This document shows, piece by piece, positions 3,138-29,232 of a stretch of DNA of 30,058 nucleotides. Source of the stretch: a virus. A program made the position numbers and the translations under genes. The notes under the pieces are model-generated. The model saw only the letters and a list, made by a program, of their open reading frames with translations, ran no database searches and was not told the DNA's origin. Within the stretch, counting starts at the first letter, position 1. The number at the start of each line of letters is the position of its first letter. The stretch is taken from positions 1 to 30,058 of IMG/VR virus record IMGVR_UViG_3300026075_000029; one strand, 5' to 3'.

Positions 3138-3167
3138 AGGCTACTACTCTCGCGGAGAGGAAACCGC
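3138..3167 (-). promoter_or_regulatory. Phage promoter family, copy at lysis cassette
   Basis: GCGGTTTC, 16 bases, TAGCCT, then 13 bases to the ATG of the M15-like peptidase. The octamer and spacing are identical to the copies at 18173-18202, 28494-28523 and 29203-29232. The predicted transcript would begin only about six bases before the start codon. Confidence 0.7.
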
Positions 3168-3188
3168 CGAAGCCGATGGATCGATGAG

Positions 3189-3205
3189 TGGGAACTTTCT
3201 TCCCA
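3189..3205. promoter_or_regulatory. Operator-like perfect palindrome in divergent region
   Basis: TGGGAA-CTTTC-TTCCCA is a perfect 6-bp inverted repeat with a 5-base spacer. It lies between the divergent lysis promoter (3138-3167) and the plus-strand metallopeptidase gene. A weak plus-strand -10 (TACCAT at 3215-3220, preceded by TG and one base) would place the palindrome over the -35 region, as expected for repression. Its only other near copy in the window is upstream of recT. Confidence 0.5.
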
Positions 3206-3261
3206 TTCTGGTGCTACCATAACCGGCGTCACCCGAAACCGATCTCCTGAAGGAGGCGCCC

Positions 3262-4008
3262 ATGATCCGCAGAACCCTCCCCCTCGCCCTCGCCGTCGCC
3301 GTCGTCCTCGCCTGGGCCTCGCCCGCCGACGCGATGGTGGTCGCTGGCGACGCCAACCCGTTCTACGTCCAGTGGGCCGCCGAAGCGAAGATGCCGACCC
3401 CGCCCCGGATCGTGGTCGCCGACCGCGAATGCCCAGAGTTCCGCGCGACGATCTGCGCTCACCCGACACGCCGACTCGTGGTGATGCCCGACGAAAGCGA
3501 CCTGTTCGATGAAGGCGACGAGAGCAGTGGTGAAGAGGTCCGGGCCGCCGACGCAGCGAGGCGCCAGCAGTACGTCGCCGAATGGGAACTGCGCCAGGAC
3601 GAAATTCGTCAGGCATCCGAAGAACAGGGATCGTCACCCCCGCCCCGCGAACCCGTGCCCCCGGCGGCGCCCGTGTCGGCCGAGCCGGTGGAAGCGCCCG
3701 AAGATCGAAGTGGCGATCAGGCGATGTACCGCTTCTTCTTCTACCACGAGGTCGCCCACGTGATCGACCTCGGAGAACACCAGGGCGCCCGGCTCTACCG
3801 GCGGATCTTCGGGCACCTAATCGAAGGCTCAACCAGGATCGAACCCCGCGAGCTGCTGGCCGACGCCTATGCCCTATGCGCGTTCGACCGGACGAAGGTG
3901 ACGACGTTCGCCAGCCGCCCACTGAGCGCCTATAGCTACGGAGCTTGGCAGCCGAGTCTGCGGGTCCACCGCCGAGTCTGCCGAGTCCTCGCCGCGGGCC
4001 TGGCCTAG
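3262..4008 (+). CDS. Secreted HExxH zinc metallopeptidase
   Basis: A 248-residue protein with an export signal: two arginines, a hydrophobic core at residues 5-19 and a likely signal peptidase I site after ADA at 24. The catalytic motif HEVAH is at 162-166, followed by ELLADAYA (197-204), where Glu197 or Asp201 could be the third zinc ligand; this is the layout of gluzincin-like peptidases. Four cysteines in the mature part (57, 65, 206, 240) fit an extracytoplasmic protein. Residues 80-152 form an acidic, then Pro-rich linker. The start has a strong AAGGAGG five bases upstream. It is the only plus-strand gene, divergent from the lysis unit and convergent with the tail fibre. A lysis helper, an outer-surface protease or a lysogenic-conversion factor are all possible. 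Confidence 0.85.
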   Translation: MIRRTLPLALAVAVVLAWASPADAMVVAGDANPFYVQWAAEAKMPTPPRIVVADRECPEFRATICAHPTRRLVVMPDESDLFDEGDESSGEEVRAADAARRQQYVAEWELRQDEIRQASEEQGSSPPPREPVPPAAPVSAEPVEAPEDRSGDQAMYRFFFYHEVAHVIDLGEHQGARLYRRIFGHLIEGSTRIEPRELLADAYALCAFDRTKVTTFASRPLSAYSYGAWQPSLRVHRRVCRVLAAGLA

Positions 4009-5009
4009 AGCAAGATCCAGGCCATCGAGCAGCCCAACCCGGCGTCGCAGCGCCGTGCGTAAGCGTTCTTCTTGATCCGCTGCTGGATGGTCTGTTTCGC
4101 AGCGGTAACCGGCAGCGCGTAGGCCTGCATCATCGACCGCCGCATCGGCAGGTTGGTGAACCCGGTGTAGAGGTCTTTCGCCACCCGCACGTTCTCGGCT
4201 TCGGCGTTGAGTTTGATACTGCCTTCGGGTTCATAGGTTTCCCCGCCCGTCCCGGCGGTGGCCGTGAGTTCGATATCCCAGATGGCGACGATGTGCAGGG
4301 TTCCGGCAACTGCAGGGGTGACTTCAAACGAGCAGCCAGTCACGCTGGTCCAGGTATTGGCTGCCAAGGATGCCGTGGCTCCGCTTGCGGAAGCCACCCC
4401 CATGCTCAGTTTCGTCTTCCGTGACGTGATCGCGCCGTCTGCAACGTCGCCCTCGGCGACACTGCCAGCCTTGTATCCCGCGAGCAGGCCGCCGTCTACG
4501 TCGCGCGTCCAAGTGATGTCAGAGCCAGACGCGCTCGAAAGCGCCCCGTCCTCGATCTGGGCGCCGCCGACCGAGCCGTAGGTCTGTCGGATTTTTTCGA
4601 TCGCCGCGCCGGACCAATCGACCTCGCCGATCTTCTCGGTGATGTCGATGCCTTCGCCGGTCGGCGCGGCGCCGGAGGTCACCCTCAGTTCCCAGGTGTA
4701 GACGGTGTGGTCGGTGAAGACAGCGGGCGTGTTATCGACTTCGTTTTTTTTCGCCACCGCCCAGATCGAGTAAGTGGCTTTCGCGCCGGACACCGTCCGT
4801 TCGACGGTCGCCTCGTTCATCCGCCATTTGCCCTCGATGATGACCCCGGCGACACCGAGGGTCGCGTGGGGGGCGACCTGGATCACCGTCGCTGATTTGC
4901 GGGTGATGTGGAGCGTGTTGACGCTGGTGAGCGCCTGCTGGATCGCGTTCGCCCACCACGAGGGGAACACGTCTTTCCGAGCGAAGAGCCAGTTGAGATC
5001 GACCGTCAT
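4005..5009 (-). CDS. Tail fibre or receptor-binding protein
   Basis: A 334-residue protein in the position of the tail fibre, just after the baseplate J and DUF2313 genes. The N-terminal ~140 residues (conserved-looking WWANAIQQAL start) probably attach to the baseplate. The middle (residues 150-205) is rich in Gly, Ala and Asp with the GxI-DGAIT-like pattern typical of trimeric fibre shafts, and the C-terminal ~130 residues look like a beta-sandwich head (S/T-rich alternating strands). It carries its own promoter candidate and no clear Shine-Dalgarno. Its TAG stop overlaps the TAG of the convergent metallopeptidase gene. Receptor binding is inferred from place and composition. Confidence 0.75.
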   Translation of the reverse strand: MTVDLNWLFARKDVFPSWWANAIQQALTSVNTLHITRKSATVIQVAPHATLGVAGVIIEGKWRMNEATVERTVSGAKATYSIWAVAKKNEVDNTPAVFTDHTVYTWELRVTSGAAPTGEGIDITEKIGEVDWSGAAIEKIRQTYGSVGGAQIEDGALSSASGSDITWTRDVDGGLLAGYKAGSVAEGDVADGAITSRKTKLSMGVASASGATASLAANTWTSVTGCSFEVTPAVAGTLHIVAIWDIELTATAGTGGETYEPEGSIKLNAEAENVRVAKDLYTGFTNLPMRRSMMQAYALPVTAAKQTIQQRIKKNAYARRCDAGLGCSMAWILL

Positions 5010-5018
5010 CCGGCAGCG

Positions 5019-5048
5019 AGTCTAGAGGCGTCCGGATTCAGCTCCCGC
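5019..5048 (-). promoter_or_regulatory. Degenerate phage promoter before tail fibre
   Basis: GCGGGAGC, 16 bases, TAGACT, then nine bases to the ATG of the fibre gene. It keeps GCGG, the last C, the spacing and a TAnnCT -10, but lacks the TTT of the full octamer. The fibre gene has no good ribosome binding site, which agrees with near-leaderless translation. Confidence 0.45.
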
Positions 5049-5092
5049 CCAGCTAGGATGGGCACGCGGGGCCAGCCGGTCCCCGGGGCGCA

Positions 5093-5121
5093 GGGGCGGG
5101 CGCGGAGTGGGCGCCCGCCCC
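5093..5121 (-). terminator. GC-rich hairpin after DUF2313 gene, possible terminator
   Basis: A perfect 11-bp stem (GGGGCGGGCGC/GCGCCCGCCCC) with a seven-base loop lies in the 124-base gap between the DUF2313 gene and the fibre gene. No T-tract follows on the minus strand, so termination is less certain than at 680-701; U-less hairpins are proposed terminators in high-GC bacteria. It directly precedes the fibre promoter candidate. Confidence 0.45.
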
Positions 5122-5133
5122 CACTTCGCGAAG

Positions 5134-5676
5134 CTAGGGCGTGGAGTGGAACTGCTGCACGTCCATTTCGGACTGGTCCAAGATGAAGTCCTCGCCCGAT
5201 TCCACGAAGAGTTCCCAGGCGGCCGGGATCTTCGCGCGCAGAATCCGTTCGGCCTGGAGGAAGTCGGAGCTACCCACTTTGAAGGGCACTTTGACCCGGA
5301 TCGTCTGGTCGGGCGTGTTGTCCTCTTCGTAGCTCCACCCCGGGCCGAGGAAGGCGGTGATCTGCTCCTCCCAGGTTTTGCCGGAAGGGTCGGGGATGGC
5401 GCCGAGGAGTTTGGTGATGACGAGGCCGCGGCGGGTGGAGACATCGACGCCGACTGGGTTGACCGTCAGCTTCAGCGCCGTCTCCCAGAGCGGCAAGGTC
5501 AGGGCGTTGGCTTTGATCGGGATCATGCCGTCGCGGATTTCCCGAGCGAGCGCGCGCTGGCGCTCCCCCTCATTGGCGAAGCACAAGCAGAGAGCCTTGT
5601 GCTCCGGCGCTTCCTGCGCCCAGCCCGGCAGCTCTTCGAGCCGGGCCTGGGCGGCGGGCGTGAGCACCCGCGCCAT
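5134..5676 (-). CDS. DUF2313-like baseplate protein (XkdU/YmfQ type)
   Basis: A 180-residue protein in the place and size range of DUF2313 (XkdU, YmfQ, Mu gp48-like) proteins, which cap the wedge beside baseplate J and connect to fibres. The N-terminal LEELPGWAQEAPEHKALC stretch, the WETALKLT segment near residues 64-71 and the run of helices that follows, with a LLGAIPDPSGKTW segment, are in keeping with that family. Its start overlaps the J gene stop by one base (TGATG). Family assignment rests on synteny more than on any catalytic residue, as this is a structural protein. Confidence 0.65.
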   Translation of the reverse strand: MARVLTPAAQARLEELPGWAQEAPEHKALCLCFANEGERQRALAREIRDGMIPIKANALTLPLWETALKLTVNPVGVDVSTRRGLVITKLLGAIPDPSGKTWEEQITAFLGPGWSYEEDNTPDQTIRVKVPFKVGSSDFLQAERILRAKIPAAWELFVESGEDFILDQSEMDVQQFHSTP

Positions 5677-6872
5677 CAGACCGCGCCTTCGGTGATCGTG
5701 GATTCGGTCGGTCGGTATTCGGCGACCTGGGCCGGGTCGTCATCGAGCACAAGGTTCGCGGCCGCAGCGTTGATTTCGACGGCACCGACATCGTGGACGC
5801 CCTCGAAGGAGGCGATCCGGGCGATGATCTTCTGCCGGACCACTTCGTCGCCGGGGGGGACGTGGCTCATGTAGTCGGCGAGGGCCTCATCGATGAAGGG
5901 CTTGAGGGCGACGGTGCCGCCGGTTCCTTCGAGCGAGTAGCCATCGTTGAACTCGATTTTGACTTTGACTTTCGCTTTGACCGTGACCGCGGTTTCGACG
6001 GTGACGGTGTGGCCGACCGGGGCCTGCCCGGAGCCTTTGCCCGCCACTGGGTCCAGGAAGGCTTTGAGGTCGGTGACGAGTTCGGCGGAGTTGGGCTGGC
6101 CGTCCGCGGTGCGGATGACGACCTTGACGGTGCCGGGTCCGTTCCAGACCGGGAAGACGGTGACCAGGCCGATCGACGCGGAGAAGGCGCGCGCCCAGAC
6201 GACGTAGTCGTGGACGTTGCCCGGCCCCTGGCCCTCGAAGACCTCCAGGAGACGTTCGCGGAGAGCCTCATCGGTCTCGGGGTCGGAGCCGCCGATGATC
6301 GGGTCGGCGTTGGCGACCGTCACCTCTTCTTCGGATTCGATGGTCGAGAGGACGATCGTGACCTCGCCGACAGCGGCATCGGTTGCCTTGCCCGATTCGA
6401 TCGCGGTGACCGGCAGGGTGACGGTACCGCCCGCGATCGTCCCGCCTTCGCTGACTTCGTATGCCTTCACCGAGGCCCCTTCGACAGGAGACTCGGCGGC
6501 GACCACGGTGCCCGCCGGGACGAGGGTGCCGTCTTCCCCGGTGAAGGTGACCTCCCCGGAGGCGTGGGTCGCGGCGAGCCGTTCGAGCGAATAGGTGAGC
6601 GCGTGGTCGTCCAGGTAGGTGCCCCAGGCGAAGGCGGGGAAAGTTGCCGCCACGTAGTCGGTGCCCATCACGTCGTAGGTTTTGGCGGCCTCCCGGACAC
6701 CGGGCTGAGAGGAGATGAAGAAGTGGTTGCCCTCGCGGGTGTCCACCCACTCATCGGCGTCATCGACGGTCAGCCCTTCGTTTGCCCAGCCGTTCCACCG
6801 GAGCCGGATGGTCGTCTCCGTCTCTTCGGGAAAGAGCGGCAGGAGGCTCAGGAAGTCTTCAGCGATCGCCAT
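5676..6872 (-). CDS. Baseplate J-like protein (XkdT/gpJ)
   Basis: A 398-residue baseplate wedge protein. Recognisable features are the early G-YLD-HA region (about residues 83-92), the beta-rich middle with EVTFTGEDGTLVPAGTVV typical of baseplate J, and the conserved GGSDPETDEALRERLLEVFE motif near 194-213, followed by WARAFSASIGLVTVFPVW and a DGQPN-like stretch. Length matches the family (350-480). The ATG immediately follows the TAA of the upstream DUF2634 gene, with no separate ribosome binding site, suggesting coupled translation. In PBSX-like tails this protein and DUF2634 form the wedge around the hub. Confidence 0.93.
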   Translation of the reverse strand: MAIAEDFLSLLPLFPEETETTIRLRWNGWANEGLTVDDADEWVDTREGNHFFISSQPGVREAAKTYDVMGTDYVAATFPAFAWGTYLDDHALTYSLERLAATHASGEVTFTGEDGTLVPAGTVVAAESPVEGASVKAYEVSEGGTIAGGTVTLPVTAIESGKATDAAVGEVTIVLSTIESEEEVTVANADPIIGGSDPETDEALRERLLEVFEGQGPGNVHDYVVWARAFSASIGLVTVFPVWNGPGTVKVVIRTADGQPNSAELVTDLKAFLDPVAGKGSGQAPVGHTVTVETAVTVKAKVKVKIEFNDGYSLEGTGGTVALKPFIDEALADYMSHVPPGDEVVRQKIIARIASFEGVHDVGAVEINAAAANLVLDDDPAQVAEYRPTESTITEGAV

Positions 6873-7427
6873 TTAGAAGCCCGTGGGGGAGATGTCGAAG
6901 GGCAGAAGCGGGACGGCCTCAGCCTCGTCGGTGACGACCAGGATATTTGACACGGTGACGACTCCTTCATCGGGATCGAATTCGGGGTCCAGCTCATCGA
7001 GTTCCCGCACCCGGTCGTGCTGGGTCACGGCCTCCCGGGCGCGCGGTTCGAAGGTGGCGATCGCGTCGCCGGGGTCAGCCAGGCCGATCCAGTCGTCCGG
7101 CTCCTCGATGCCGAACTCGTCGGAGAAGATCGGGCTGCCGCCCTGGGCGGTGCAGAGGGCGTTGCCGATCCACTCGCGGAGGGAGTCCTTGCCGTAGACG
7201 ACCTGGGGGGCGGCGCTGGAGCCGCCGCGCTTGTAGCGCTGGCGCTCCCGATCCCATGCCCACGATTTGCCGAACGGGATCGGCGCTGGCGACGAGTCGG
7301 TGGCGAAGGCATCATCGGTGAGGGACGCCTCGGCGGCGGCGAGCTGGGCGTCGGCGCTGAGGAGGTCTTCGTCGCCCGCGGGAAGCAGCTCGAATTCGTC
7401 GTTGTCGGTGAACGTTTCTTCCGCCAT
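6873..7427 (-). CDS. DUF2634/gp25-like baseplate wedge protein (XkdS type)
   Basis: A 184-residue protein with PIPFGKSWAWD (residues 49-59) and VVYGKDSLREWIGNALCTAQG (77-97) followed by a DEFG segment, the pattern of DUF2634/gp25-like wedge proteins that contact baseplate J. The first ~45 residues are an acidic extension. Two starts are possible: ATG 7508, which overlaps the upstream gene by 38 bases, or ATG 7427. I prefer 7427 because a promoter-family candidate (GCGGAAGC, 16 bases, TACCGT) ends 12 bases before it and the gap is then free of coding. Neither start has a Shine-Dalgarno. Confidence 0.8.
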   Translation of the reverse strand: MAEETFTDNDEFELLPAGDEDLLSADAQLAAAEASLTDDAFATDSSPAPIPFGKSWAWDRERQRYKRGGSSAAPQVVYGKDSLREWIGNALCTAQGGSPIFSDEFGIEEPDDWIGLADPGDAIATFEPRAREAVTQHDRVRELDELDPEFDPDEGVVTVSNILVVTDEAEAVPLLPFDISPTGF

Positions 7428-7439
7428 CAGCGTAGGTAC

Positions 7440-7469
7440 ACGGTAGCCCGGCTCGGATTCTGCTTCCGC
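7440..7469 (-). promoter_or_regulatory. Degenerate phage promoter before DUF2634 gene
   Basis: GCGGAAGC, 16 bases, TACCGT, then 12 bases to ATG 7427. It retains GCGG, the last C, the exact spacing and a TAnnnT box. It falls in the 43-base gap that arises if the downstream start is used, so the two calls support but do not prove each other. Confidence 0.35.
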
Positions 7470-7470
7470 C

Positions 7471-7857
7471 TCATGCCGTGGTTTTGTCTTCGATGACCCC
7501 GACGGCATCTAGGACCGTCAGGAGGTTTTTGAGGGCGACGTTGCCGCCACGGGAGCCGGAGACCGAGGGAGGGTCGTCCTCCTGGGCGGAGTCGCCGACC
7601 AGTCGATCGAGCGCCATGTGGTCGCCCCTCTCGTCGTCCAAGACGGTGACGACGGACCCGACGCGGACTTTCCGCTTCAGCCCAGCGTGAAACTCGAAGT
7701 CCTCGTCACCCTCGGTGAGCCGGAGGTCGGAGCCGAAGGCTTCGAGGGTCAACGGGTCGAGCTTGACGACGCGGTAGCGCTGCGGCGGCGGCGACGCCTT
7801 GACGGCCTCCTCCCGAGCGGCCTTCCTCACCGCGTCCGCGAAGTCGCCCTTGCTCAC
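7471..7857 (-). CDS. DUF2577-like baseplate protein (XkdR type)
   Basis: A 128-residue protein with a small beta-barrel-like core: RYRVVKLDPLTLEAFGSDLRL, then KRKVRVGSVVTVLDDERGDHMALDRLV. This agrees with DUF2577 (XkdR), whose members carry a GD-V-V/L core ending in -Y-VLDRL. It starts at GTG, with the upstream stop overlapping as GTGA. Position between the hub genes and DUF2634 is as in PBSX (XkdQ-R-S-T). The role is structural, in the baseplate. Confidence 0.7.
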   Translation of the reverse strand: MSKGDFADAVRKAAREEAVKASPPPQRYRVVKLDPLTLEAFGSDLRLTEGDEDFEFHAGLKRKVRVGSVVTVLDDERGDHMALDRLVGDSAQEDDPPSVSGSRGGNVALKNLLTVLDAVGVIEDKTTA

Positions 7858-8237
7858 GCGATCGTCTCGATTTTGCAGGAGAGCGTCTCGTTGGCGAGGA
7901 TGCCGAGACCCATGAACGGGCGGCGGGCCAGGGAGAGGTCGTCCACGATTGAGGCGGTCCCGAGCACGTAGGCGAAAACGACCCGAGTTTCGGTCGGCAT
8001 CGCGCGGGAGATCTTCACGATGTCGCCAACCAGCTCGACCAGTTCGGAGTCCTCGCGCACGAGCGCGATCGAGCCGGTCTCAGGGTTGGTCGAGGTGTCG
8101 TGCCAGCCGACATCGGCGGCTTCGGCGGCGAGGTCATGGACGGGGCCGTCGAAGGCGGCCTGGGCGACCGGGAAGGCGCGACGGGCCATCTGGAGGTCGA
8201 GGTCGGCCTGGGCGGCGAGGAAGTCGATGAAGCTCAT
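7854..8237 (-). CDS. Unknown baseplate-region protein
   Basis: A 127-residue protein that I do not assign to a family. The start is the ATG at 8237 that overlaps the hub gene stop (AATGA); a longer frame reaching 8468 only re-reads the hub gene. The N-terminal third is helical with aliphatic residues (FLAAQADLDL), the rest beta-rich, ending on a CKIETIA strand. It sits between the XkdQ-like hub and the DUF2577 gene, both overlapping it by four bases, so it is translated with the baseplate set. An adaptor within the hub-wedge interface is plausible. Confidence 0.75.
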   Translation of the reverse strand: MSFIDFLAAQADLDLQMARRAFPVAQAAFDGPVHDLAAEAADVGWHDTSTNPETGSIALVREDSELVELVGDIVKISRAMPTETRVVFAYVLGTASIVDDLSLARRPFMGLGILANETLSCKIETIA

Positions 8238-9493
8238 TCGGCATCTTCCTTTGGCTTGCGTCCGCCCCGCTCCTTCTTCTTCTTGTCCCGGCGCTCTTCG
8301 TCGCGGCGTTTCCGGTCCTCGAAGTAGGGGTCGTCCTGGGCGATGGTGATTTCCGTTTCGTAGCTGCTCGGCAGAAGAATGTGGTTTGCCCCGGTGACGA
8401 AGGCGAAGGAGCGATCCCGGGCAGTGTCCCCTACCTTGCCCGACCAACCCGGCTCGGTGGTGACCCACCTCACCGCCGAGCCTTTCTCCAGGAAGGGGAT
8501 GCCGGGGAGGGTGAGGGTGGCCGTTCGTTCCAGCTTGATCGCCTCGGCAAGGTCGCGCTTGGCCTGCTCGCGAAGATCCGCCCGGGAGTCCACTCGGCCG
8601 TAGTCCTTCTCTTTCTCGATCTTGCCGAAGCGTTTGATGGCGCTGACCGAGCGGATGGTTTCCTCGACCTTCCTGGTCTTCTCGCCGGAGCGGATCCGCC
8701 CCTTGGCGACGATCTGGGTGACCGGCCGGGGCTTACCGGTGGCCTGGGTGGAGCCGCCTTTCTCGATCCCCTTGATCGTGTACAGCGTCCCCGGGCGCCG
8801 GTAGGGGAGCACGTCGAGCCGGGTGTCGCGGAAGCGGATGACGAACTTCTGCGCCGTCTTCTCTTTCTCCAGGGCGACAGCTTTGCGGATGACCTCCAGG
8901 CCCGAGGCCTTCAGCTTCAGCTTCTTGATCTTGCGGCGGCCCTCGGAGATCCGGCCCGGGCGGACGCCGCACTTCTTGCAGACGTAGCGGATGATCTCGT
9001 CCATCGTCCAGCCGTCCGGGTGGCGCTTGTCCTTCTTGAACTCCCATTCGCGCTCGGTCAGGGAGAGCGGGGTCAGGTCGTCTTCGAGGGTGACCGAGAG
9101 GCTGCCGGTCTTCAGATCGACCGGGGGCACGTCGGGGATGCGGAGATCCCAGAGCCGCCGCCAGCGGCCGCCCCAGTGGACCAGGAGGCGGACGCGATCA
9201 CCCCTGACCACCGGGACCGAGTTGATCCTCTTGACGCCGGAGCGCCGGACGGTGAGGGAGCCGGAGAGCGTCGAGCCTTCGGCGTCAGACCAGTCCACCT
9301 CCGTCGTGTTCCGGGTCAGGGTCAGGTAGCGGCTCTCGCGCGGCTGGGCGGGGCGGACCAGGACGATGCGGAAGTCGAATTCACCCGGTTCGATCGAGGA
9401 GATCCGGCGGTCGTAGAAGGCCGACAGGTTGGGAGCGCGGAGTTGCGCCCGCTGGGTCTTCTTGCGCTGCTCGCGGCCGGTGGCCTGGGCCAT
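8234..9493 (-). CDS. XkdQ-like baseplate hub protein
   Basis: A 419-residue protein matching late-control gpD/XkdQ hub proteins in order and pattern. After a basic N-terminus comes a beta-rich domain (LTRNTTEVDWSDAEGSTL with GDRVRLLVHW near residues 100-110), then the VTLEDDLTPLSLTE segment, a helical WTMDEIIRYVCKKCGV element (163-178, with a CKKC pair), and the domain with FRDTRLDVLPYRRPGTLYTI. The C-terminal ~35 residues are an extreme Lys/Arg/Glu tail. The hub threads the tail tube to the puncturing tip. The ATG follows TAA of the LysM gene after a run of A residues without a clear Shine-Dalgarno. Confidence 0.85.
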   Translation of the reverse strand: MAQATGREQRKKTQRAQLRAPNLSAFYDRRISSIEPGEFDFRIVLVRPAQPRESRYLTLTRNTTEVDWSDAEGSTLSGSLTVRRSGVKRINSVPVVRGDRVRLLVHWGGRWRRLWDLRIPDVPPVDLKTGSLSVTLEDDLTPLSLTEREWEFKKDKRHPDGWTMDEIIRYVCKKCGVRPGRISEGRRKIKKLKLKASGLEVIRKAVALEKEKTAQKFVIRFRDTRLDVLPYRRPGTLYTIKGIEKGGSTQATGKPRPVTQIVAKGRIRSGEKTRKVEETIRSVSAIKRFGKIEKEKDYGRVDSRADLREQAKRDLAEAIKLERTATLTLPGIPFLEKGSAVRWVTTEPGWSGKVGDTARDRSFAFVTGANHILLPSSYETEITIAQDDPYFEDRKRRDEERRDKKKKERGGRKPKEDAE

Positions 9494-9497
9494 TTTT

Positions 9498-16307: not shown

Positions 16308-17786
16308 CTATTTCACCTGACCCGATCCGAGGAGGTAGTTGGTCGTGCGGACGAATTTCCACCCGAACTCGAAGATGATCGCGTCCTGGAGGTGAGGGGG
16401 GTTGTCCTCCAGCACGCGGAAGAAGGGCTGGCTGCCCTCAGAGAGGACACCGGCCTGGATCAGGCCTCGATCGAGGAGGGCGTTGATTTCGGCGGTGCCC
16501 TGCTGGCGGACGGCGGCTTTCGAGGTATCGGTGACGCGGGAGTCGCCGATGATGTTCTCGTCGCCCCAGACTTTCATCCGGCGGAGGAAGAGGTCGGCGA
16601 CGCGGACGATGCGCGGGTCGCTGAAGAGTTCGTAGGGCCGCGTTTTGTCCGTCTGCGAGTTGAAGGTGGTGACGCCCTTGGAGATCATCAGGCTGGCCCC
16701 CGCAGACTGGGTGCGGCGGAAGACGGTGAGGCCCTGGGCGGCAGCCACGGTCAGTTCGTCGGCGGAGATGTTGACGGTGCCGACCTGCTTGAGGCCTGCG
16801 ACCTGGGCGAAGGTGAGGGAGGCTTCCTCGCCGCACCCGGCAAGGACTCCGGCGATCCGCGGCGCGAGCTGCGAGGTCGAGACTTCTTTGCCGAGGAATT
16901 CATCGAAGAAAGCGCCGCCGGTCAGGCGGATCACGTGTGGGTCGCGGATCGAGCTGACCGCGGTGATCGCTGAGGCGAGTTCCTCGGATTTGGAGCCGCC
17001 GAGGATCGTGGTGATCGGCCGCTGAAGTTCTGCCTGGGCCTGGGTCCAGGTGAAGACCGAGGTGATGATTTCGGCGGTGGTCAGGTCGAAGGGGGCGAAG
17101 ATCGAGAAGTCCTCGAACTCCAGCGCCTCCATCGCGGCGGTCCACTGGGTCGCCGTGAGGGTTTCGCCGTTGGCGCCGCCCGCCAGCGGCGTGCTCGCCG
17201 TAGTCGCCAGTTTGGTTCCCGACACCAGCGATTCGGCTTTCACGAGTTTCGAGCTGGCGTTGATGAGGGTGGCGGCTTCGGTGATCGTCGCCTCGGTGAA
17301 GGAGTAGCGCTCGACCACGACGCCGTCGAAGAGGATCGAGATGCGGTCTTTCGTCGCATCGACCGGGTCGTCTTCGGTTTTGATCGAGATCCGGTCGCCG
17401 CGTTTGCCGGTGTAGTACGCGGTCAGTTTCAGCGCGTTGACCGCTCCGGGGGTGTTTTTGATCGTGAGGGTCGAGGCGGCGGCTTCTTTCGCCATCCGGT
17501 AGGCGAGGACTTCCCCGGCGGCAGCCTTATCGCTGACGCCAGGGCCGACGAAGGCGCCCATGATGGCGTCGCGGCCCGCAGTCGAGGAGTTGCCGAAGAT
17601 CTGCTCGAATTCGCCGAAAGTGCCGAGGCGCTGGATGCCTTCGGCGTCGGAGCCGAGCGGCCCCCAGTCGTGAACGATCGGGATGGCGACGACCTGAGAG
17701 ATCGAGCTGGGCGGGCGGACGGTCTGTTCGCCGACGAGGCCGACGTAGGTGCCCGGGTTCGCCGGGCGAGCCAGAACACCGCTCAT
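16308..17786 (-). CDS. Contractile tail sheath protein (XkdK-like)
   Basis: A 492-residue sheath protein. The N-terminus (PANPGTYVGLVGEQTVRPP, PIVHDWGPLGSD, FGEFEQIFG) and the C-terminus (FFRVLEDNPPHLQDAIIFE and RTTNYL) are characteristic of sheath proteins, and the middle carries the inserted domain with KRGDRISIKTEDDP. The conserved GVTTFNSQTDKTRPYELFSDPR-like central stretch (near residues 380-400) is present. The length fits the family. The protein polymerises around the tube and contracts on binding, which defines this as a myovirus-type tail. The ATG overlaps the stop of the small coiled-coil gene (ATGA). Confidence 0.95.
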   Translation of the reverse strand: MSGVLARPANPGTYVGLVGEQTVRPPSSISQVVAIPIVHDWGPLGSDAEGIQRLGTFGEFEQIFGNSSTAGRDAIMGAFVGPGVSDKAAAGEVLAYRMAKEAAASTLTIKNTPGAVNALKLTAYYTGKRGDRISIKTEDDPVDATKDRISILFDGVVVERYSFTEATITEAATLINASSKLVKAESLVSGTKLATTASTPLAGGANGETLTATQWTAAMEALEFEDFSIFAPFDLTTAEIITSVFTWTQAQAELQRPITTILGGSKSEELASAITAVSSIRDPHVIRLTGGAFFDEFLGKEVSTSQLAPRIAGVLAGCGEEASLTFAQVAGLKQVGTVNISADELTVAAAQGLTVFRRTQSAGASLMISKGVTTFNSQTDKTRPYELFSDPRIVRVADLFLRRMKVWGDENIIGDSRVTDTSKAAVRQQGTAEINALLDRGLIQAGVLSEGSQPFFRVLEDNPPHLQDAIIFEFGWKFVRTTNYLLGSGQVK

Positions 17787-18163
17787 GCCGCGGCCTCCTC
17801 GTCGGGCTTGACCTCACGATTGGCGAACTCCTCGCAGAGCCGCTTGGCCTCGCTGACCGTCACCGGCCCCTCCTTGCCGTGAAGCGCTCCGGCGAGGAAC
17901 GGCTTGCTGTAGCCGGTCATCGTGCGGGAGTTTTCCAGGAGGTGGTCGATCTCGAAACTGGTCTCGGAGGCCTCGGCCTTGGCGGCGTCCTCGGCCCGCT
18001 GGCGCTGGACCTTCTGGATCGCCTCCACCACGGTCTTGCGCGGTTTGTCCTGGCCCTGCTCCTGCTCCAGGAGCGCGACCAGGCCCTCGTCGGTCTGATC
18101 TCCCAGCTTCGAGATCAGCTCATCGGCGGGCGTGTCGGCGGCGATGGGTGAGGCGTCGGACAT
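17783..18163 (-). CDS. Small coiled-coil protein preceding the sheath
   Basis: A 126-residue acidic protein with a helical centre (LVALLEQEQGQDKPRKTVVE then a KVQRQRAEDAAKAEASE segment) and an Ala/Glu-rich end. I do not recognise a family. It has a full promoter-family copy with -10 box nine bases before the ATG and no Shine-Dalgarno, so it is a likely leaderless first gene of the sheath-tube-chaperone unit. Confidence 0.75.
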   Translation of the reverse strand: MSDASPIAADTPADELISKLGDQTDEGLVALLEQEQGQDKPRKTVVEAIQKVQRQRAEDAAKAEASETSFEIDHLLENSRTMTGYSKPFLAGALHGKEGPVTVSEAKRLCEEFANREVKPDEEAAA

Positions 18164-18172
18164 CCGCGTCGC

Positions 18173-18202
18173 AGAATAGGCCCGTCCCGAGAATGAAACC
18201 GC
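18173..18202 (-). promoter_or_regulatory. Phage promoter family, copy at tail unit
   Basis: GCGGTTTC, 16 bases, TATTCT, then nine bases to the ATG at 18163. It fills the 46-base gap after the terminator-like tail gene and has the full octamer. It should drive sheath, tube, chaperone and possibly the tape measure. Confidence 0.75.
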
Positions 18203-18209
18203 TGGAGGA

Positions 18210-18851: not shown

Positions 18852-18859
18852 CGCTGTCG

Positions 18860-18889
18860 AGGATACCCGCGCCCGCAATGGCCGCCCGC
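18860..18889 (-). promoter_or_regulatory. Degenerate phage promoter before tail terminator gene
   Basis: GCGGGCGG, 16 bases, TATCCT, then eight bases to GTG 18851. The -10 box is identical to that of the protease promoter, but only GCGG of the octamer is kept. It follows a large hairpin, which makes a transcription-unit boundary here likely. Confidence 0.35.
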
Positions 18890-18901
18890 CGAGAAGTCGG
18901 C

Positions 18902-18946: not shown

Positions 18947-19000
18947 AACCAGGCCAATGAGCTACAGCAAGGGAAAGACCCTACAGAGGGTGACCGGACG

Positions 19001-23555: not shown

Positions 23556-23560
23556 GCCCC

Positions 23561-24091
23561 CTACACCGTGAACTGGAGAGCGACGGCCAGTAGCTCGGCG
23601 TCCCCGGTGAGGGAGTCGGTCTGGCCGCCGCTGGCGTCAGCGTCGCGGTAGACCAGCAGCTCGCAGAGGTCACCCGCGGCCACGCCATCGAGGTTGGCGA
23701 GTTCGATCGTGCTCTCGATCAAACGGCGGGCCTCGGTCGCGTTGGCCGCCGTGCTGACTAGGCTCGCCGCCGCCTCGGCGTGCTCAACCGGCGTGTCGGC
23801 ATCGGCCGGGGTGATCGCGGCGAGTCGCGCACCCCAGGCGCAGGCGTTGGCCGTAGCCGAGTTCGTCATCCAGAGGAGCTTGACCGTGCCGCCTGCTTTG
23901 TAGTCGGCAGGCATTCGGAACTGGAACCAGAGGTGCTCATCGGTCGAGGCGTCGAAGGCGGCGACGCGGACCTGCTTCTTCGGGTTGGCCTCGGTTCCCG
24001 CGACCACCAGCAGCGCCGGGCCTGCATTGCTGGCGGAACCGTCGCCCGGAGCGCCGTCCCATGGCCCCCACTGAAGGGTCGCCGTGGCCAT
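23561..24091 (-). CDS. Small beta-rich phage structural protein
   Basis: A 176-residue protein whose pattern I have seen in phage structural genes: WFQFRMPADYKAGGTVKLLW near residues 55-74, an AITPADADTP turn, then ATEARRLIESTIELANLDG and a LLVYRDADA strand near the end. It is probably a jelly-roll or beta-sandwich fibre/decoration protein. It comes five bases before the lectin-repeat gene, so the two may form one appendage. Specific role unknown. Confidence 0.7.
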   Translation of the reverse strand: MATATLQWGPWDGAPGDGSASNAGPALLVVAGTEANPKKQVRVAAFDASTDEHLWFQFRMPADYKAGGTVKLLWMTNSATANACAWGARLAAITPADADTPVEHAEAAASLVSTAANATEARRLIESTIELANLDGVAAGDLCELLVYRDADASGGQTDSLTGDAELLAVALQFTV

Positions 24092-24097
24092 CGGCGC

Positions 24098-24577
24098 CTA
24101 CGAGGCTCGGAAGAAGCCTGCGGTGGCGATCTGCGCCGTAATGTCCGAGCCGTCCGGCGTGACCGAGAAGTCGTGGAAGGTCCAGGGGAGGACGTTGCCG
24201 TCGTTGCCGCCGGTCGAGTCGGAGTCATAGCCGGTGGCGATGTCGGAGATGGCTCCGGTGCCGTCGTTGGCCACCGCCGTCCAGGTCTGGTCAGGGCAGT
24301 CGGTATCCACCCGGTCATTCGTGTCGTCGTAGGTGATGGTGATCCCGCCCGCGTTGTCGATCGACTTGCGGGTGGAACCGGTGTTGGTGGCGAAGTTGGT
24401 GGCGCCCGCAACCAGAGCTTCAAAGGAGTCGAGGTCTTTCAGCACGGCGTCTTCCTGGACGCCCGTGGCGGCGACCAAGGCGATCAGGAGGACCGAGTTG
24501 GGGGGGTCGTTCCCGTTGATCCGCTCGGCCCACTCGGTGCCGCGGCCCTTGGCGCGGTTGAAGACGAAGTCAGGCAT
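24098..24577 (-). CDS. Hypothetical phage head-region protein
   Basis: A 159-residue protein that begins MPDFVFNRAKGRG and continues with a hydrophobic VLLIALVAATG segment (about residues 28-38) and a Thr/Asp-rich beta region (SIDNAGGITITYDDTNDRVD). Proteins of this kind, with the N-terminal FNxAKG and a D-PDQTW turn, occur among phage head or decoration genes; no function is known to me. The start overlaps the upstream gene by eight bases. Confidence 0.65.
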   Translation of the reverse strand: MPDFVFNRAKGRGTEWAERINGNDPPNSVLLIALVAATGVQEDAVLKDLDSFEALVAGATNFATNTGSTRKSIDNAGGITITYDDTNDRVDTDCPDQTWTAVANDGTGAISDIATGYDSDSTGGNDGNVLPWTFHDFSVTPDGSDITAQIATAGFFRAS

Positions 24578-25064
24578 CGAGCTTTACCTCGTAGTAGTGG
24601 CGGACCTCGCCGCCGAAGCCCGCTTTGCCGTCTTTCTCCTCGGGCCACTTGTCGGGGTTCTCGACCACCTCGTAGCGCACGTCGCCGTCCACGGTCTTGA
24701 AGACCAGGGCGTCGTAGTGGAGGAAGGTGTGCGGGGCGGGGCCGAAGGGGTTCTCCGGCGGGCCGGAGGAGCGCACGACCAGCTCGCCCTCGCCCTCAGC
24801 CTCGATCCACCCCTCAGAGATCCCGTTGGCGACGAAACCGGTAGGCAGCTTCGCCGTCTTCGGCGGCTTGCCCTCGATCGCGATGCCAAGGAGCGGCCGC
24901 GGCGTCGGAGAGACCCCGGCCTCGGCCAGCGCCTCCTGGAGCAGGGGGATCAGGGCCTCGGCGTCTTCGGGCGTGTAGAGAGCCGCCTCGCCGGTCACCG
25001 GGTCGAAGAGCTTGACCCGGTCCGGCCCCTGGTCGGCGAGCTTGCGGATGGCGAAGTTCGCCAT
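24570..25064 (-). CDS. Hypothetical head-region protein
   Basis: A 164-residue acidic protein not assigned to a family. It shows an N-terminal strand-turn (KLFDPVTGEAALYTPEDAEA), a helical part and then a beta-rich part with GWIEAEGEGELVVRSSGP. The upstream GGCGGGG is a moderate ribosome binding site. It is co-directional and tightly packed with the head genes on both sides. Confidence 0.65.
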   Translation of the reverse strand: MANFAIRKLADQGPDRVKLFDPVTGEAALYTPEDAEALIPLLQEALAEAGVSPTPRPLLGIAIEGKPPKTAKLPTGFVANGISEGWIEAEGEGELVVRSSGPPENPFGPAPHTFLHYDALVFKTVDGDVRYEVVENPDKWPEEKDGKAGFGGEVRHYYEVKLDA

Positions 25065-25076
25065 CTGCGCCCCGCC

Positions 25077-25823
25077 TTAGCCCTTCCGGGACTGCTGCTC
25101 GGCCTTCGCGGCCTTGGCGACCGTCGAGCGGTCGTCCTTGGCCAGATCGGCCAGGAGGTCGTCGGAGAAGTCACCGATGCTGGCGACGATGTCCTTCGCC
25201 TTCGCGCCCTCGGGGACCGCGGTGAGCTTGCCGGTGTTGGCCTCGGCGGCAGTGGACTTCTCCGCGGCGCCCTGGCCGTCTTTCTCGGTGACGGCGCCCT
25301 CGGCCGTGGCGCGGCCCTCCTTCTGGAGGCGCTTCAGCTCTTCCTGGAGGCGCTCGTTTTCGGCGGCGAGCGCCTTGGGATTCTCGGTCGTGGCGACAAC
25401 CGCAGTGCCCTCTTCGAGGGCGGAGTCGAAGGCCTCGATCGACTTCGGGAAGAGCTTGTAGGCCGCGCAGCAGCGCCCGGTGCGGCCTTTGGTCGTCAGG
25501 TAGAGGATGACGACGTTGGACTCCAGCGGCATCTCCTTGCGGCCGCGAACGCGGGCCGAGAGGACACGGTCGAGCAGCTCCTCGCCGACGATCGCCTGAG
25601 CCTGGCCGCGGACCTCGTCCTCGTTCAGGAACCGGGTGCGCTGCGTGTGCTCGTGGCGCCCGGCGGCGACGCGCAGGGCGTCCGGCATCGCCCTGTGGGT
25701 CGCCTGGATCAGGTGCTTCGCGTTGCCCGCGATGCCCAGGTCCTTGACCAGCTCGCCGCCCTCACTCTGTTCGAGATCCTCGGGGCCGACTCGGAGGGGC
25801 TGAAGTCCAGTTGCAGGCGACAC
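25077..25823 (-). CDS. Unknown protein downstream of major capsid gene, coiled-coil centre
   Basis: A 248-residue protein starting at GTG with AAGGAG six bases upstream. The N-terminal ~140 residues look folded (VVILYLTTKGRTGRCCAAYKL at about 104-124), residues 145-175 are a strong coiled coil (NPKALAAENERLQEELKRLQ) and the rest is Ala/Lys/Glu-rich with a short C-terminal helical motif (IVASIGDFSDDLLADLA). A minor head protein is suggested by place; I do not recognise the family. Confidence 0.65.
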   Translation of the reverse strand: MSPATGLQPLRVGPEDLEQSEGGELVKDLGIAGNAKHLIQATHRAMPDALRVAAGRHEHTQRTRFLNEDEVRGQAQAIVGEELLDRVLSARVRGRKEMPLESNVVILYLTTKGRTGRCCAAYKLFPKSIEAFDSALEEGTAVVATTENPKALAAENERLQEELKRLQKEGRATAEGAVTEKDGQGAAEKSTAAEANTGKLTAVPEGAKAKDIVASIGDFSDDLLADLAKDDRSTVAKAAKAEQQSRKG

Positions 25824-25838
25824 AGGCGACTCCTTCGG

Positions 25839-26942
25839 TTAGGGCTGGGCCTTGACGGCTCCGAGAGGCTCCCCGACCGCGCCGCCGAACACGTGGCGCA
25901 CCTTGAAGGGGATCTCGTCGTAGTCCATCGAGTACGGGTCGGAGGCGCCGCCGCCGAGACCCTTCATCCCTGAGTCCTCCAGGAAGATGTAGGGGTCGCG
26001 CCGGTTACGGAGGAAGGCCGCCAGGAAGGCCGGACGGTCCTGCGCGTTGGCGAGGAGGTAGTAGTCGCCCGGCGTGTTGAGCCACGGCTCCACGATCACC
26101 GCGTCCTCGGGGAGCAGGTCCGAGAGGGCGTTGTGGCGGCCGGGGTAGAAGCGCCGCGGCGAGGAGTCCACGTCGGCGGTGGCGCCGGTCTCCGTGGAGC
26201 GGATGAACTGGTTGATCTCGGCCTTGGCGCTCGGCTCGCGCACGAGGATTTTGGCCAGCTCGACCGAGATCGGGATGCCGTCGCGGTCGCGCCGGAGCGC
26301 CATCGTGTCGAGCATCGCCATGATGTTGTCCGGGTCGATTTCCGCGGCGGCCCCGGTGACGAGGTTTTCGCGGCCCAGGGAGAAGAAGGGTTCCCCATCG
26401 ACCGAGTAGGTCGGGTTCGACTCGACCAGAGCGGTCATCGCCTGCGCGACGTACTCGGCCATCGACTTGCCCAGCTCGGTCGGGATCATGTTGAGGATGC
26501 GGTCGGTTTCGTCGTTGACCGTCAGCTCGTAGGTGATCCCGTAGATGCCGCCGTACTTGCCGACCGCGAAGGACGGGCCACCGGCCTCCCAGCTCCGGAG
26601 CCGCGGGTACTCGCCGTGCTCCTCAATGCCCTCGAAGCCGCGGATCGCGCCCAGCTCGGAGACGGTGTGCTCGCGGAAGTCCTTGGCGTTCTCGAAGCCA
26701 AGGTAGCGCTCCCAGCGGGAGGCGACGCCGCGGAAGCGCTGGCGCATCCGGTGGTGGATGACGGTCTGGAGGAAGATCGGGAAGTCCACCCGGCCCTCGG
26801 GGGCGCCGCTGCCCTCGCGGAGTGCGCCCTCGACAGCCTCCTCGCCGAGGAGCATCTCGACGGCTTTCGGGTCGGCGCGGAAGTCCTTGAACATCTCGAA
26901 GAGGTCGAGATGTTTGCCCCAGTGTCCGTATGGACTACGCAT
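25839..26942 (-). CDS. Major capsid protein, Mu gpT-like HK97 fold
   Basis: A 367-residue major head protein. The stretch from about residue 85 (FENAKDFREHTVSELGAIRG), the GGIYGITYELTVNDETDRIL segment at 130-149 and the following helix with LGKSMAEYVAQAMTALVE form the N-arm to spine-helix pattern of gpT-like capsid proteins, and RRDPYIFLEDSGM near 310-322 fits the P-domain strand near the end. The ATG has AAAGGAG nine bases upstream. Place directly after a decoration protein and the protease-scaffold gene is fully consistent. Confidence 0.88.
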   Translation of the reverse strand: MRSPYGHWGKHLDLFEMFKDFRADPKAVEMLLGEEAVEGALREGSGAPEGRVDFPIFLQTVIHHRMRQRFRGVASRWERYLGFENAKDFREHTVSELGAIRGFEGIEEHGEYPRLRSWEAGGPSFAVGKYGGIYGITYELTVNDETDRILNMIPTELGKSMAEYVAQAMTALVESNPTYSVDGEPFFSLGRENLVTGAAAEIDPDNIMAMLDTMALRRDRDGIPISVELAKILVREPSAKAEINQFIRSTETGATADVDSSPRRFYPGRHNALSDLLPEDAVIVEPWLNTPGDYYLLANAQDRPAFLAAFLRNRRDPYIFLEDSGMKGLGGGASDPYSMDYDEIPFKVRHVFGGAVGEPLGAVKAQP

Positions 26943-26960
26943 CGTGCAGGTCTCCTTTGC

Positions 26961-27725
26961 CTAGCCCTGGATGAAGGCGTGTAGCGCGTTGGCGTTGATA
27001 CGGGCGACGTGCGGGGTCCGGCTCGCGTCGATCTCGTCCACGACTCCGACCGGCACGGAGACATCGGTGCTGCCCGCTCCGGCCTGAGAGGTGGTGACGG
27101 TGACTTTTTCTTCGCCGCCGGTCAGTTCGTCGTCGGCGGTCGGCGCGGCCACGTCCGTTTTTTCGAACTGGCCGGTCCACTCGACCACGTAGGGGGTGCC
27201 GCCGCCGATGCTGCCGGGGCCGCCCGTGACGACCACGTCGCCGGGGTTGATGCCGTCGAGCGCCTCCAGGGCTTCGCGCACTTCTTTCGTCGTGGCGTCG
27301 AATTTGATTTTCGCCGTGGTGCCGAAGGCGGTGATGATCCGCCAGGTGCCGCCGGAACCCTCGACTTTGAAGGTGGTTTTCTCGTTGGCGTCGGCGCCGC
27401 CGGTCCCGCCACCCGCGGCGAGCAGGAGCGTCTCGCGGTCGGTCGCGTTGATCCAGACCTTCTGGCCGACCGAGAGGTTGGCCAGCGCGCCGACACAGGC
27501 GACCTCGTGGACGCCGCCGAGGACGCCGACACAGCGCTCGCCGGGCTGGATCTGGAGGACGGCGGAGCTGTCGGGCCGGTCGAAGCGGGTGGGCTGCCCC
27601 GTCTTGACGAGGTAGAGCACCTTGTTGTCAACGAAGGCGAACCGGCTGGAGCTGATCGGGCCTTTTTTTTCGGCACCGAGGCCCGGGAAGATGACCTCTA
27701 CGCGCTGTCCTGGGGCGTCGTACAT
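26961..27725 (-). CDS. DUF2190-like capsid decoration protein with inserted Ig-like domain
   Basis: A 254-residue protein. Residues 1-105 resemble capsid decoration proteins of the DUF2190 type (CVGVLGGVHEVACVGALANL, then VGQKVWINATD), and residues 220-254 (VPVGVVDEIDASR, PHVARIN) look like the end of the same fold. Between them, about 113-216, lies a separate beta-sandwich: GTWRIITAF, KEVREALEALDGI, DVVVTGGPG, TPYVVEWTG, DELTGG, VTVTTSQAG. This is the repeated Ig-like module seen in many phage tail and fibre proteins. GGGAAGG upstream provides a ribosome binding site. The protein should cover the capsid surface, with the inserted domain displayed. Confidence 0.75.
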   Translation of the reverse strand: MYDAPGQRVEVIFPGLGAEKKGPISSSRFAFVDNKVLYLVKTGQPTRFDRPDSSAVLQIQPGERCVGVLGGVHEVACVGALANLSVGQKVWINATDRETLLLAAGGGTGGADANEKTTFKVEGSGGTWRIITAFGTTAKIKFDATTKEVREALEALDGINPGDVVVTGGPGSIGGGTPYVVEWTGQFEKTDVAAPTADDELTGGEEKVTVTTSQAGAGSTDVSVPVGVVDEIDASRTPHVARINANALHAFIQG

Positions 27726-27731
27726 GCCTGG

Positions 27732-28454
27732 CTACCTTCCCTCGCTCAGCATCTCGTGGAGATGCTTCTCGTCCTTGTCTTTGTCGCCGGTCAGATCGCC
27801 GGACTCCTCCAGGAACTGGGTGAAGCGGCTGCCCTGGCGCAGGCCCGACGGGGTCTCGCTCTCGCGGGCTTTGCCGCCGTCACCGTTCGGGTCGCCCTCG
27901 CTGGGGCTGAGGCCGGTGACGCGGGGGGTGCCCCCGGCGGCCTCGATCAGCTTGTTCGCCTGGATGCAGTCGGCTTTGACGGACTCGGTGATGGCCTCTT
28001 TCTTGGCCTCGATGTCCTCGCCCTCGACCATCAGGCCGCGACTCGGCCCGGAGGCGTAGAGGACGTAGTTCTTGCGGATCTCGGCGCCGTACTCTTTCGG
28101 CAGGCCGTTCTCCTGAAGGGTGTCGATCTCGGAGACCGCGTGGTCGGCGAGGATGCGGTACTCCTCGCGCTCTTCCACGATCGCCTCGGCGCGTTCCTTG
28201 ATCTCCGTCTCGGAGAGCTGGGCGCCCTGGAACTCCTCGGTGATCGCCTCGCGCTGCCTCGTGAGCGCGGCGTTGAGCTGCGCCTCGGTGATCGCGCCGT
28301 CGCCGCCGGGGGTGATCGCCGGGGCCGGGGCGGCCTTGGGGCCGGAGATGATCGACTCGGCGAGCGTCTCGTTGCCCGCCTCCTTCAGCGCCTCGGCGAG
28401 CGCCTCCGGCGTGAGCGCCGCGATCTGCTCGTTGGACATCTCCGAGAGTTTCAC
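27732..28454 (-). CDS. Nested scaffold protein from internal start
   Basis: An in-frame internal GTG, with AAGGAG six bases upstream, would give a free 240-residue scaffold consisting of the C-terminal half of the protease-scaffold gene. A full promoter-family copy lies just upstream inside the gene. Lambda C/Nu3 is the known precedent for an internal scaffold start. The protein starts KLSEMSNEQIAALTPEALAE after the initiator, is rich in helices (QREAITEEFQGAQLSETEIK) and ends with a charged tail. Extra scaffold over protease is what head assembly needs. Confidence 0.7.
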   Translation of the reverse strand: MKLSEMSNEQIAALTPEALAEALKEAGNETLAESIISGPKAAPAPAITPGGDGAITEAQLNAALTRQREAITEEFQGAQLSETEIKERAEAIVEEREEYRILADHAVSEIDTLQENGLPKEYGAEIRKNYVLYASGPSRGLMVEGEDIEAKKEAITESVKADCIQANKLIEAAGGTPRVTGLSPSEGDPNGDGGKARESETPSGLRQGSRFTQFLEESGDLTGDKDKDEKHLHEMLSEGR

Positions 28455-29195
28455 CTGGCGCTCCTTGCGGTCGTCGTCTCCATCTCGCGGAGCAGTGTAG
28501 GCAGACTCCAAAAGTGAAACCGCTGAACGACGCTCCTCCTCCGACAGCGGGCGCCCCCCGGCGCCGCCCCGGAAGACGAAATCGACACTCCCCATCGGCT
28601 TCTCGCGGATGCCCTCGATGAGCGCACCCTTGACGCCCTTGTCCCACGACGCGGTGCCGACGCGGACCGCCTTCGGCCAGGCGTTGATGGAAACGTTGAG
28701 GCACCCGGCGTCCTCTTCGAGCATCTCGCGGATGGCCTTCTGCGGGATGACTTCGCCGACGACGCCGCCCTTCTGGTAGCCGTGGTCGGCGTCGTCCTCG
28801 AAGACCAGATCGGGGTCGAAGTAGGAGCGCAGGACGCGACCGCCGAGGGAGTTGAGGGAGCGGCCCTTCTCCTGGAGCAGCTCCATGACTTCCTCGGCCA
28901 ACTCCTCGGCGACGTGGTCGATGTACATAGGCCACCCGGTGAAGACCGAGGCGTGCTCGGCCAGCATCTTGGCCTCGTAGATCGGCTGGAGGCCGCGGAT
29001 CGCGCGCCCTTTCGAGCGGCACGGCCGGATGATGGCGAACTTGCCGACGAAAGCCTCGTGGCCCTCCACGACCTTTTTCCTGAAGATCGACCCTTTCTTC
29101 GGGACGATCAGCTTGGACTGGGACTCCTGAAGCGTCGAGAGGTCGTTGGGCGTGATGAGCGCGCCCTCGGTCAGCTCATCTTTCTCCGGGTCCAC
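27732..29195 (-). CDS. Prohead protease fused to scaffold
   Basis: A 487-residue capsid maturation protease. Relative to the GTG start, His94 in MYIDHVAEE and Ser169 in LNVSINAWP are the likely catalytic pair of a HK97 U35/S78-type protease, followed by GSVDFVFRGGAGG at 202-214. From about residue 248 the protein becomes a helical, Ala/Glu-rich scaffold with LSEMSNEQIAALTPEALAEA and a coiled coil. No ATG and no Shine-Dalgarno fit the N-terminus, but the GTG lies seven bases behind the -10 box of a full promoter-family copy, so leaderless translation is expected. The protease cleaves scaffold and itself during head assembly. Confidence 0.85.
   Translation of the reverse strand: MDPEKDELTEGALITPNDLSTLQESQSKLIVPKKGSIFRKKVVEGHEAFVGKFAIIRPCRSKGRAIRGLQPIYEAKMLAEHASVFTGWPMYIDHVAEELAEEVMELLQEKGRSLNSLGGRVLRSYFDPDLVFEDDADHGYQKGGVVGEVIPQKAIREMLEEDAGCLNVSINAWPKAVRVGTASWDKGVKGALIEGIREKPMGSVDFVFRGGAGGRPLSEEERRSAVSLLESAYTAPRDGDDDRKERQVKLSEMSNEQIAALTPEALAEALKEAGNETLAESIISGPKAAPAPAITPGGDGAITEAQLNAALTRQREAITEEFQGAQLSETEIKERAEAIVEEREEYRILADHAVSEIDTLQENGLPKEYGAEIRKNYVLYASGPSRGLMVEGEDIEAKKEAITESVKADCIQANKLIEAAGGTPRVTGLSPSEGDPNGDGGKARESETPSGLRQGSRFTQFLEESGDLTGDKDKDEKHLHEMLSEGR
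28451..28483 (-). CDS. Ten-codon leader ORF coupled to nested scaffold
   Basis: The first ATG after the internal promoter, ten bases past the -10 box, opens a ten-residue frame (METTTARSAR) whose TGA overlaps the GTG of the nested scaffold as GTGA. It contains the scaffold ribosome binding site. Translation of it could deliver ribosomes to the scaffold start. It is short, so chance is possible. Confidence 0.35.
   Translation of the reverse strand: METTTARSAR
28494..28523 (-). promoter_or_regulatory. Phage promoter family, copy inside protease gene
   Basis: GCGGTTTC, 16 bases, TACACT. The octamer and spacing are the same as in the three intergenic full copies, but this one lies inside coding sequence, 40 bases before the internal GTG of the scaffold. 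It would give a separate scaffold, decoration and capsid transcript. Confidence 0.7.
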
Positions 29196-29202
29196 GCGGC
29201 TC

Positions 29203-29232
29203 AGGATAGAAGTGCGCGGATTGGGAAACCGC
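29203..29232 (-). promoter_or_regulatory. Phage promoter family, copy at head unit
   Basis: GCGGTTTC, 16 bases, TATCCT, then seven bases to the GTG of the protease gene. The seven-base distance places the transcription start on or beside the start codon. It lies immediately after the stop codon of the upstream gene. Confidence 0.75.

Follow-up and report, generated by a model that had tools for sequence, protein, structure and literature searches.

Late genes of an uncultivated contractile-tailed soil phage are preceded by a class of promoter-like sites, and the sequence and position of these sites give good support to the view that the class is real. The phage is IMG/VR record IMGVR_UViG_3300026075_000029, which is complete within the 30,058-bp stretch of DNA analysed here (hereafter the window; GC content about 67%). 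The late region lies on its minus strand, with Pfam and PHROG matches to capsid (Phage_capsid_4), tail sheath, baseplate J and M15 peptidase lysin proteins. We consider it highly probable from the sequence that the sites act as late promoters for leaderless or near-leaderless mRNAs, in which an ordinary -10 element (TANNCT) would be combined, at a fixed spacing of 16 bases, with a phage-specific box in the -35 position (GCGGTTTC, or more generally GCGG[TG][AT][TG]C). The reader of this box would more likely be encoded by the phage. The late timing is deduced from the kind of gene that the sites would serve.

Exactly four GCGGTTTC octamers are present on the minus strand of the window and all four are followed, after exactly 16 bases, by a TANNCT hexamer, at 3138-3167 (TAGCCT), 18173-18202 (TATTCT), 28494-28523 (TACACT) and 29203-29232 (TATCCT), just as a preliminary description of this DNA had reported. 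An extra exact copy on the plus strand, at position 5989, has no -10 element. Because TANNCT is a loose pattern, and because octamers with at most one mismatch show no enrichment, one might argue that an octamer and a weak hexamer coincide by chance within a 30-kb window. However, the pattern had no match in 100 dinucleotide shuffles of the window, the homologous positions are kept in diverged contigs and there is a single spacing peak, which refutes this explanation and leaves it with a practically negligible probability. None of the one-mismatch octamers on either strand of the window has a TANNCT at spacings of 14-19 bases. The rarity of TANNNT in the window, with 40 occurrences across both strands, gives additional weight to the pairing of the octamer with the -10 element.

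The preliminary description had placed three of the four sites in gaps, 13, 9 and 7 nt ahead of a start codon. These distances could be confirmed and the three sites do precede genes, whereas the fourth, at 28494-28523, sits inside ORF 27732-29195. The site at 29203-29232, the predicted late promoter of the protease/capsid operon, begins directly after the TGA of the preceding gene and ends 7 nt before GTG 29195, the start of this ORF (27732-29195, minus strand), which contains both an internal predicted promoter and a nested start. The capsid genes follow the ORF directly, and it is conserved in seven contigs. Since its protein has no Pfam or PHROG family match, the names head protease and scaffold are inferred from synteny. 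The site at 18173-18202 lies 9 nt before ATG 18163 and would serve a small gene of a family of unknown function (phrog_1939) together with the tail sheath gene behind it (16308-18163, minus strand), and the site at 3138-3167, the predicted promoter of the lysis genes, lies 13 nt before ATG 3124 of the M15 peptidase lysin gene (Peptidase M15_3; 2417-3124, minus strand). As a count of the family, four proved too low, as the comparison with relatives revealed two more minus-strand members in the window with a diverged -35 box and the same architecture, each ahead of a tail gene: 5019-5048 (GCGGGAGC-N16-TAGACT, 9 nt to ATG 5009) and 18860-18889 (GCGGGCGG-N16-TATCCT, 8 nt to GTG 18851), the latter being the weaker of the two. 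Upstream of the predicted lysin promoter, at about 3175-3217 on the minus strand, the window also carries a small hairpin (GGGAA-GAAAG-TTCCC), the stem of which reads GGTAA/TTACC in the related contig G2, a compensatory change. A lone plus-strand ORF (3262-4008) runs divergently from the lysin gene and encodes a signal-peptide-like start and a zinc-peptidase-like HEVAH motif, without a Pfam or PHROG match.

Relatives of the phage were found among viral contigs. G3 is near-identical to the window; the protease is 63% identical in G1, 59% in G2, 47% in G7 and 45% in G18, the capsid protein is 77% identical in G6 and 57% in G7, and the sheath protein is 44% identical in G8. The closest named phages are remote, with capsid identities of about 30% or less and sheath identities of about 25%; a protease relative was not found among named phages, and scans of a collection of bacterial and archaeal genomes gave no relative. 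A motif search over the phage and its relatives, the check suggested in the preliminary description, recovered the architecture GCGG[TG][AT][TG]C-N16-TANNCT-N6..9-ATG/GTG in six diverged viral contigs, the most distant of which have drifted boxes, and the genes served match those of the window, namely protease, nested scaffold, sheath block, tail gene and lysin. The three reachable sites of G1 have octamers identical to those of the window, four of four sites are found in G2, one of them as ACGGTTTC, and three sites are found in G6. Taken by position, the 29203 site is kept in G1, G2 (here as ACGGTTTC) and G6, the 18173 site in G1, G2 and G6 and the 3138 site in G2, while the internal site is kept in G1, G2 and G6, is exact in G18 and reads GCGGTATC in G7. 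Counterparts of the 5019 site, both with TAGACT, are GCGGGATC in G2 and GCGGGAGC in G6, and the 18860 site corresponds to GCGGCTCC-N16-TATCCT before the orthologue in G6. Both the 29203 and the 18173 site have drifted in G7, G8 and G18; the drifted boxes are ACGGTATG, GCGGTATC and ACAGTATC before orthologous starts in G7, GTGGTATC with TACGCT in G8, and GCGGTCCT, GCGGTTTG and GAGGTTCC in G18.

Between the window and its relatives the boxes are kept while the flanks and most spacer bases change. The spacer had been called unrelated, which is true for most of its bases; however, in 16 sites from the window and relatives, positions 3-8 read roughly TTTYSG and a C is usual before the TA. The -35 box varies by phage lineage, whereas the -10 element stays nearly constant, TANNCT being present at all six window sites with few exceptions among the relatives. 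Taken together, these alignments support a lineage-wide class of predicted promoters, which is kept at the same places in diverged relatives.

The class also stands out when genes are called in a way that is blind to the motif. With a simple codon-usage caller, 427 genes were called in seven contigs, and 48 of 86 TANNNT hexamers in the stretch scanned upstream of their starts end 6-9 nt before the start codon (P 1.5e-28 against a uniform expectation), with counts of 17, 16, 4 and 11 at gaps of 6, 7, 8 and 9 nt and no more than 4 at any other gap. GCGG is found at N20 before these TANNNT hexamers in 18 cases and in at most 3 at each of 15 other spacings, and the GCGG-box sites occur in one orientation only. 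A second class is leadered: here TANNNT is mostly located 25-39 nt upstream, the leader often contains CACCCGAWC and AGGAGG, and GCGG is present at the same offset in only one of 25 cases. The window holds such a contrasting site at 627-662 on the minus strand, with a promoter-like TGG-TAACTT and the leader CACACCCGAACCTGGAGG before ATG 619 and without the GCGG box. A strong terminator-like hairpin (GGGGCCACC-TTCG-GGTGGCCCC, 680-701, minus strand) is located where the lysis genes end, just ahead of this leadered site. Leaders that combine CACCCGAWC with AGGAGG are also found ahead of early genes in G2, G7 and G8 and resemble a start-associated sequence. To assess specificity, 2.9 million viral contigs were searched with an extended pattern that included the start codon. 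Among the 18 matching stretches, six fall in four contigs of this lineage; the other 12 occur once per contig, mostly ahead of short open frames. Because all matches elsewhere are solitary, the class is, within the sensitivity of this search, confined to this lineage. Among the papers listed by a literature search for the octamer GCGGTTTC, none was relevant.

Transcription begins about 7 bases downstream of a -10 element, and the accumulation of TANNNT at 6-9 nt before start codons is therefore what leaderless mRNAs require. At 29203, 18860, 18173 and 5019, the -10 lies 6-9 nt before an RTG codon that has no Shine-Dalgarno sequence; transcription would thus begin either at the start codon or a few bases ahead of it, and the leaderless or near-leaderless mRNAs produced would not need a Shine-Dalgarno sequence. 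If transcription starts 7 nt downstream of the -10, the gap is too long for a strictly leaderless mRNA at the lysin gene (13 nt) and at the sheath site of G18 (15 nt), and the lysin site is near-leaderless only. The sites had been presented as a near-leaderless promoter family; this agrees with their presence before the same genes in diverged relatives and with the distance of the -10, but it does not extend to the 28494 site, which is intragenic and would serve a nested gene with a leader. The proximity to start codons might instead indicate that the sites are not promoters and act post-transcriptionally or as translational signals. Yet the intragenic copy lies about 40 nt upstream of a start with its own Shine-Dalgarno sequence, the intergenic sites have none, and the most constant part is a -10-like TANNNT at promoter distance, which makes a post-transcriptional or translational role very improbable.

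We next consider the intragenic site, the -10 of which is TACACT. The 28494-28523 segment encodes AVSLLESAYT within the protease ORF, and the site is located about 40 nt upstream of a nested start, GTG 28454, that is in frame with this ORF and has an AAGGAG Shine-Dalgarno sequence of its own (28452-28466 in total, with the GTG at 28454-28452, minus strand). AAGGAG and GTG align without any difference between the window, G1 and G2, and G6 retains the GTG. The internal copy would thus give rise to a short-leadered mRNA, and the nested in-frame start would suit a scaffold protein encoded within the protease gene. The box and the bases that follow it form the codons GTT TCA CTT TTG. Each of these makes up 3-6% of its codon family, and the window, G1, G2 and G6 share all four. 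Ten orthologous genes, with 1146 amino-acid-conserved codons, contain no more than seven rare codons conserved in this way, and four of them are at the internal site (hypergeometric P 0.0007, in a test devised post hoc after plain codon identity had come out non-significant). Plain identity, with six of nine codons at the internal site identical (P 0.27), is uninformative in such GC-rich genes. In G7, the protein has changed to AVSVLASTYP and the promoter layout is retained. These codons indicate that the intragenic site is under constraint at the DNA level. The arrangement resembles that of C/Nu3 of phage lambda, where a scaffold gene is nested within a head protease gene, in that a scaffold would start in frame inside the protease ORF; the difference is that the nested start described here seems to have its own promoter within the coding sequence.

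Which factor might read the box? That the spacing is so rigid speaks for a single protein complex on the box and the -10, and the box is located where region 4 of a sigma factor would bind. We propose that the host RNA polymerase probably touches the -10 through its main sigma factor, and that a late-acting factor, more likely encoded by the phage, reads the box, from which weaker conserved bases extend into the spacer. When compared with promoters of the housekeeping sigma-70/SigA type, the sites have a TANNNT -10 but nothing close to TTGACA in the -35 position. The earlier statement that the -35 differs from TTGACA is borne out, the box being GCGGTTTC-like, and TTGACN-N16..19-TANNNT is absent from both strands of seven contigs, even though each contig has between 36 and 144 copies of TTGAC. 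Promoters of the SigB/SigF type have a GTTT-type -35 and a GGGTA -10; GGTTT is present here, but none of 16 aligned sites has GGG before the TA, where CC is usual. Assuming a start 7 nt after the -10, the box would cover about -36 to -29, so that it agrees with the MotA type in position only.

A host alternative sigma factor with a preference for GCGGTTTC at -35 and TANNCT at -10 would require no phage factor, and the position and length of the -35 suit a contact with sigma region 4. A search for sigma region 2 (PF04542) at E 0.5 gave no match in eight records, several of them fragmentary, with 11 of 14 controls detected, and a lack of this domain among the contigs searched is in line with a sigma factor supplied by the host. 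On the other hand, the box drifts across phage lineages while the -10 stays, for which different hosts could account, and conserved bases reaching into the spacer are unusual for a plain sigma contact; we regard a host sigma factor as possible but doubtful. A box that differs by lineage next to a -10 that hardly does would fit a phage-encoded reader or different hosts.

The window lacks the early region of the phage, and the absence of a regulator from it therefore carries no meaning. Matches to sigma region 4 above the cut-off were obtained only in G1 (6287-6709) and G7 (36758-37240), in both cases in small double-HTH proteins. The G7 protein is homologous to the product of G2 62841-63440 (35% identity), with the order HTH, CxxC pair, HTH, and G2 encodes another double-HTH protein at 77893-78426. 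As the G7 and G2 proteins are homologous and yet barely related to the G1 protein, these sigma-region-4-like proteins are no more than candidate box readers. For a conserved protein of about 120 aa near the late genes, the structure model is of low confidence (pLDDT 59.5). We speculate, tentatively, that the phages run their late programme through leaderless promoters with a small double-HTH factor of their own that replaces sigma region 4 at the -35 and co-evolves with the box from one phage lineage to another, and that the intragenic promoter sets scaffold levels. Alternatively, GCGGTTTC could be an operator for a phage repressor or another DNA-binding protein that overlaps ordinary promoters, as an imperfect inverted GCGG-N9-CCGC is found at the protease sites of the window, G1 and G2 and at the sheath site of G1. 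However, neither the internal site nor most sheath sites have the inverted half, the distance to the -10 is rigid, the polymerase would have no alternative -35, and the sites all share one orientation, all of which makes an operator improbable.

The hosts of the lineage are probably high-GC bacteria; that they are actinobacteria can only be guessed, from the GC content and from a weak H2TH match in G2. This H2TH/mIHF-like protein might point to such a host, but its sole Pfam match is below the cut-off and it is kept as a weak hint. G2 further encodes a head protein with a weak Intein_splicing match fused to a 2'-5' RNA ligase-like domain (L027:10636-12720), and its early region (L026, L027) is rich in repair functions, with Ku, RecT, RecA, RusA and RNase H domains.

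Classes of late promoters are known for few cultivated phages, and here one could be read from metagenomic sequence alone, together with an operon map covering protease, scaffold, tail and lysin genes. The class suggests that, in phages of high-GC soil bacteria, leaderless mRNAs can account for much of virion production. Its description also corrects gene starts and exposes a conserved predicted promoter inside a coding sequence, and the lineage-specific -35 boxes form a natural data set in which to look for their reader.

Several known systems share parts of this architecture. In T4 middle promoters, a phage-specific box (the MotA box) likewise replaces the -35 at about -30 and a host-type -10 is retained (PMC6755090), but the box sequence differs and T4 middle genes are neither late nor leaderless. 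In mycobacteria, leaderless genes with a -10 directly before an RTG start, and translation from an RTG at +1, are established (PMC4633059); the sites described here similarly have the -10 directly before RTG without a Shine-Dalgarno sequence, whereas the mycobacterial examples are host genes with a normal -10, for which that paper reports no fixed special -35 box. Leaderless SigA-like promoters have been predicted for Cluster O mycobacteriophages such as Corndog (PMC4351075). As in the window, the predicted start there is the first base of the start codon, intergenic gaps are short and one promoter lies within a coding region; in contrast, the -35 elements of these phages are SigA-like (e.g. 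TGTCAA) and only a few of their promoters are leaderless, while the -35 of the window is GCGGTTTC-like and the class spans late operons. Lastly, the start-codon-proximal SAS element of Cluster K mycobacteriophages, GGGATAGGAGCCC, lies over the ribosome-binding region (PMC3203893). It is also a short conserved element repeated before start codons across a phage lineage, but the element of the window is located in the predicted promoter and not in the ribosome-binding region, and the closer analogue of SAS is the leadered class of these contigs with its CACCCGAWC and AGGAGG.
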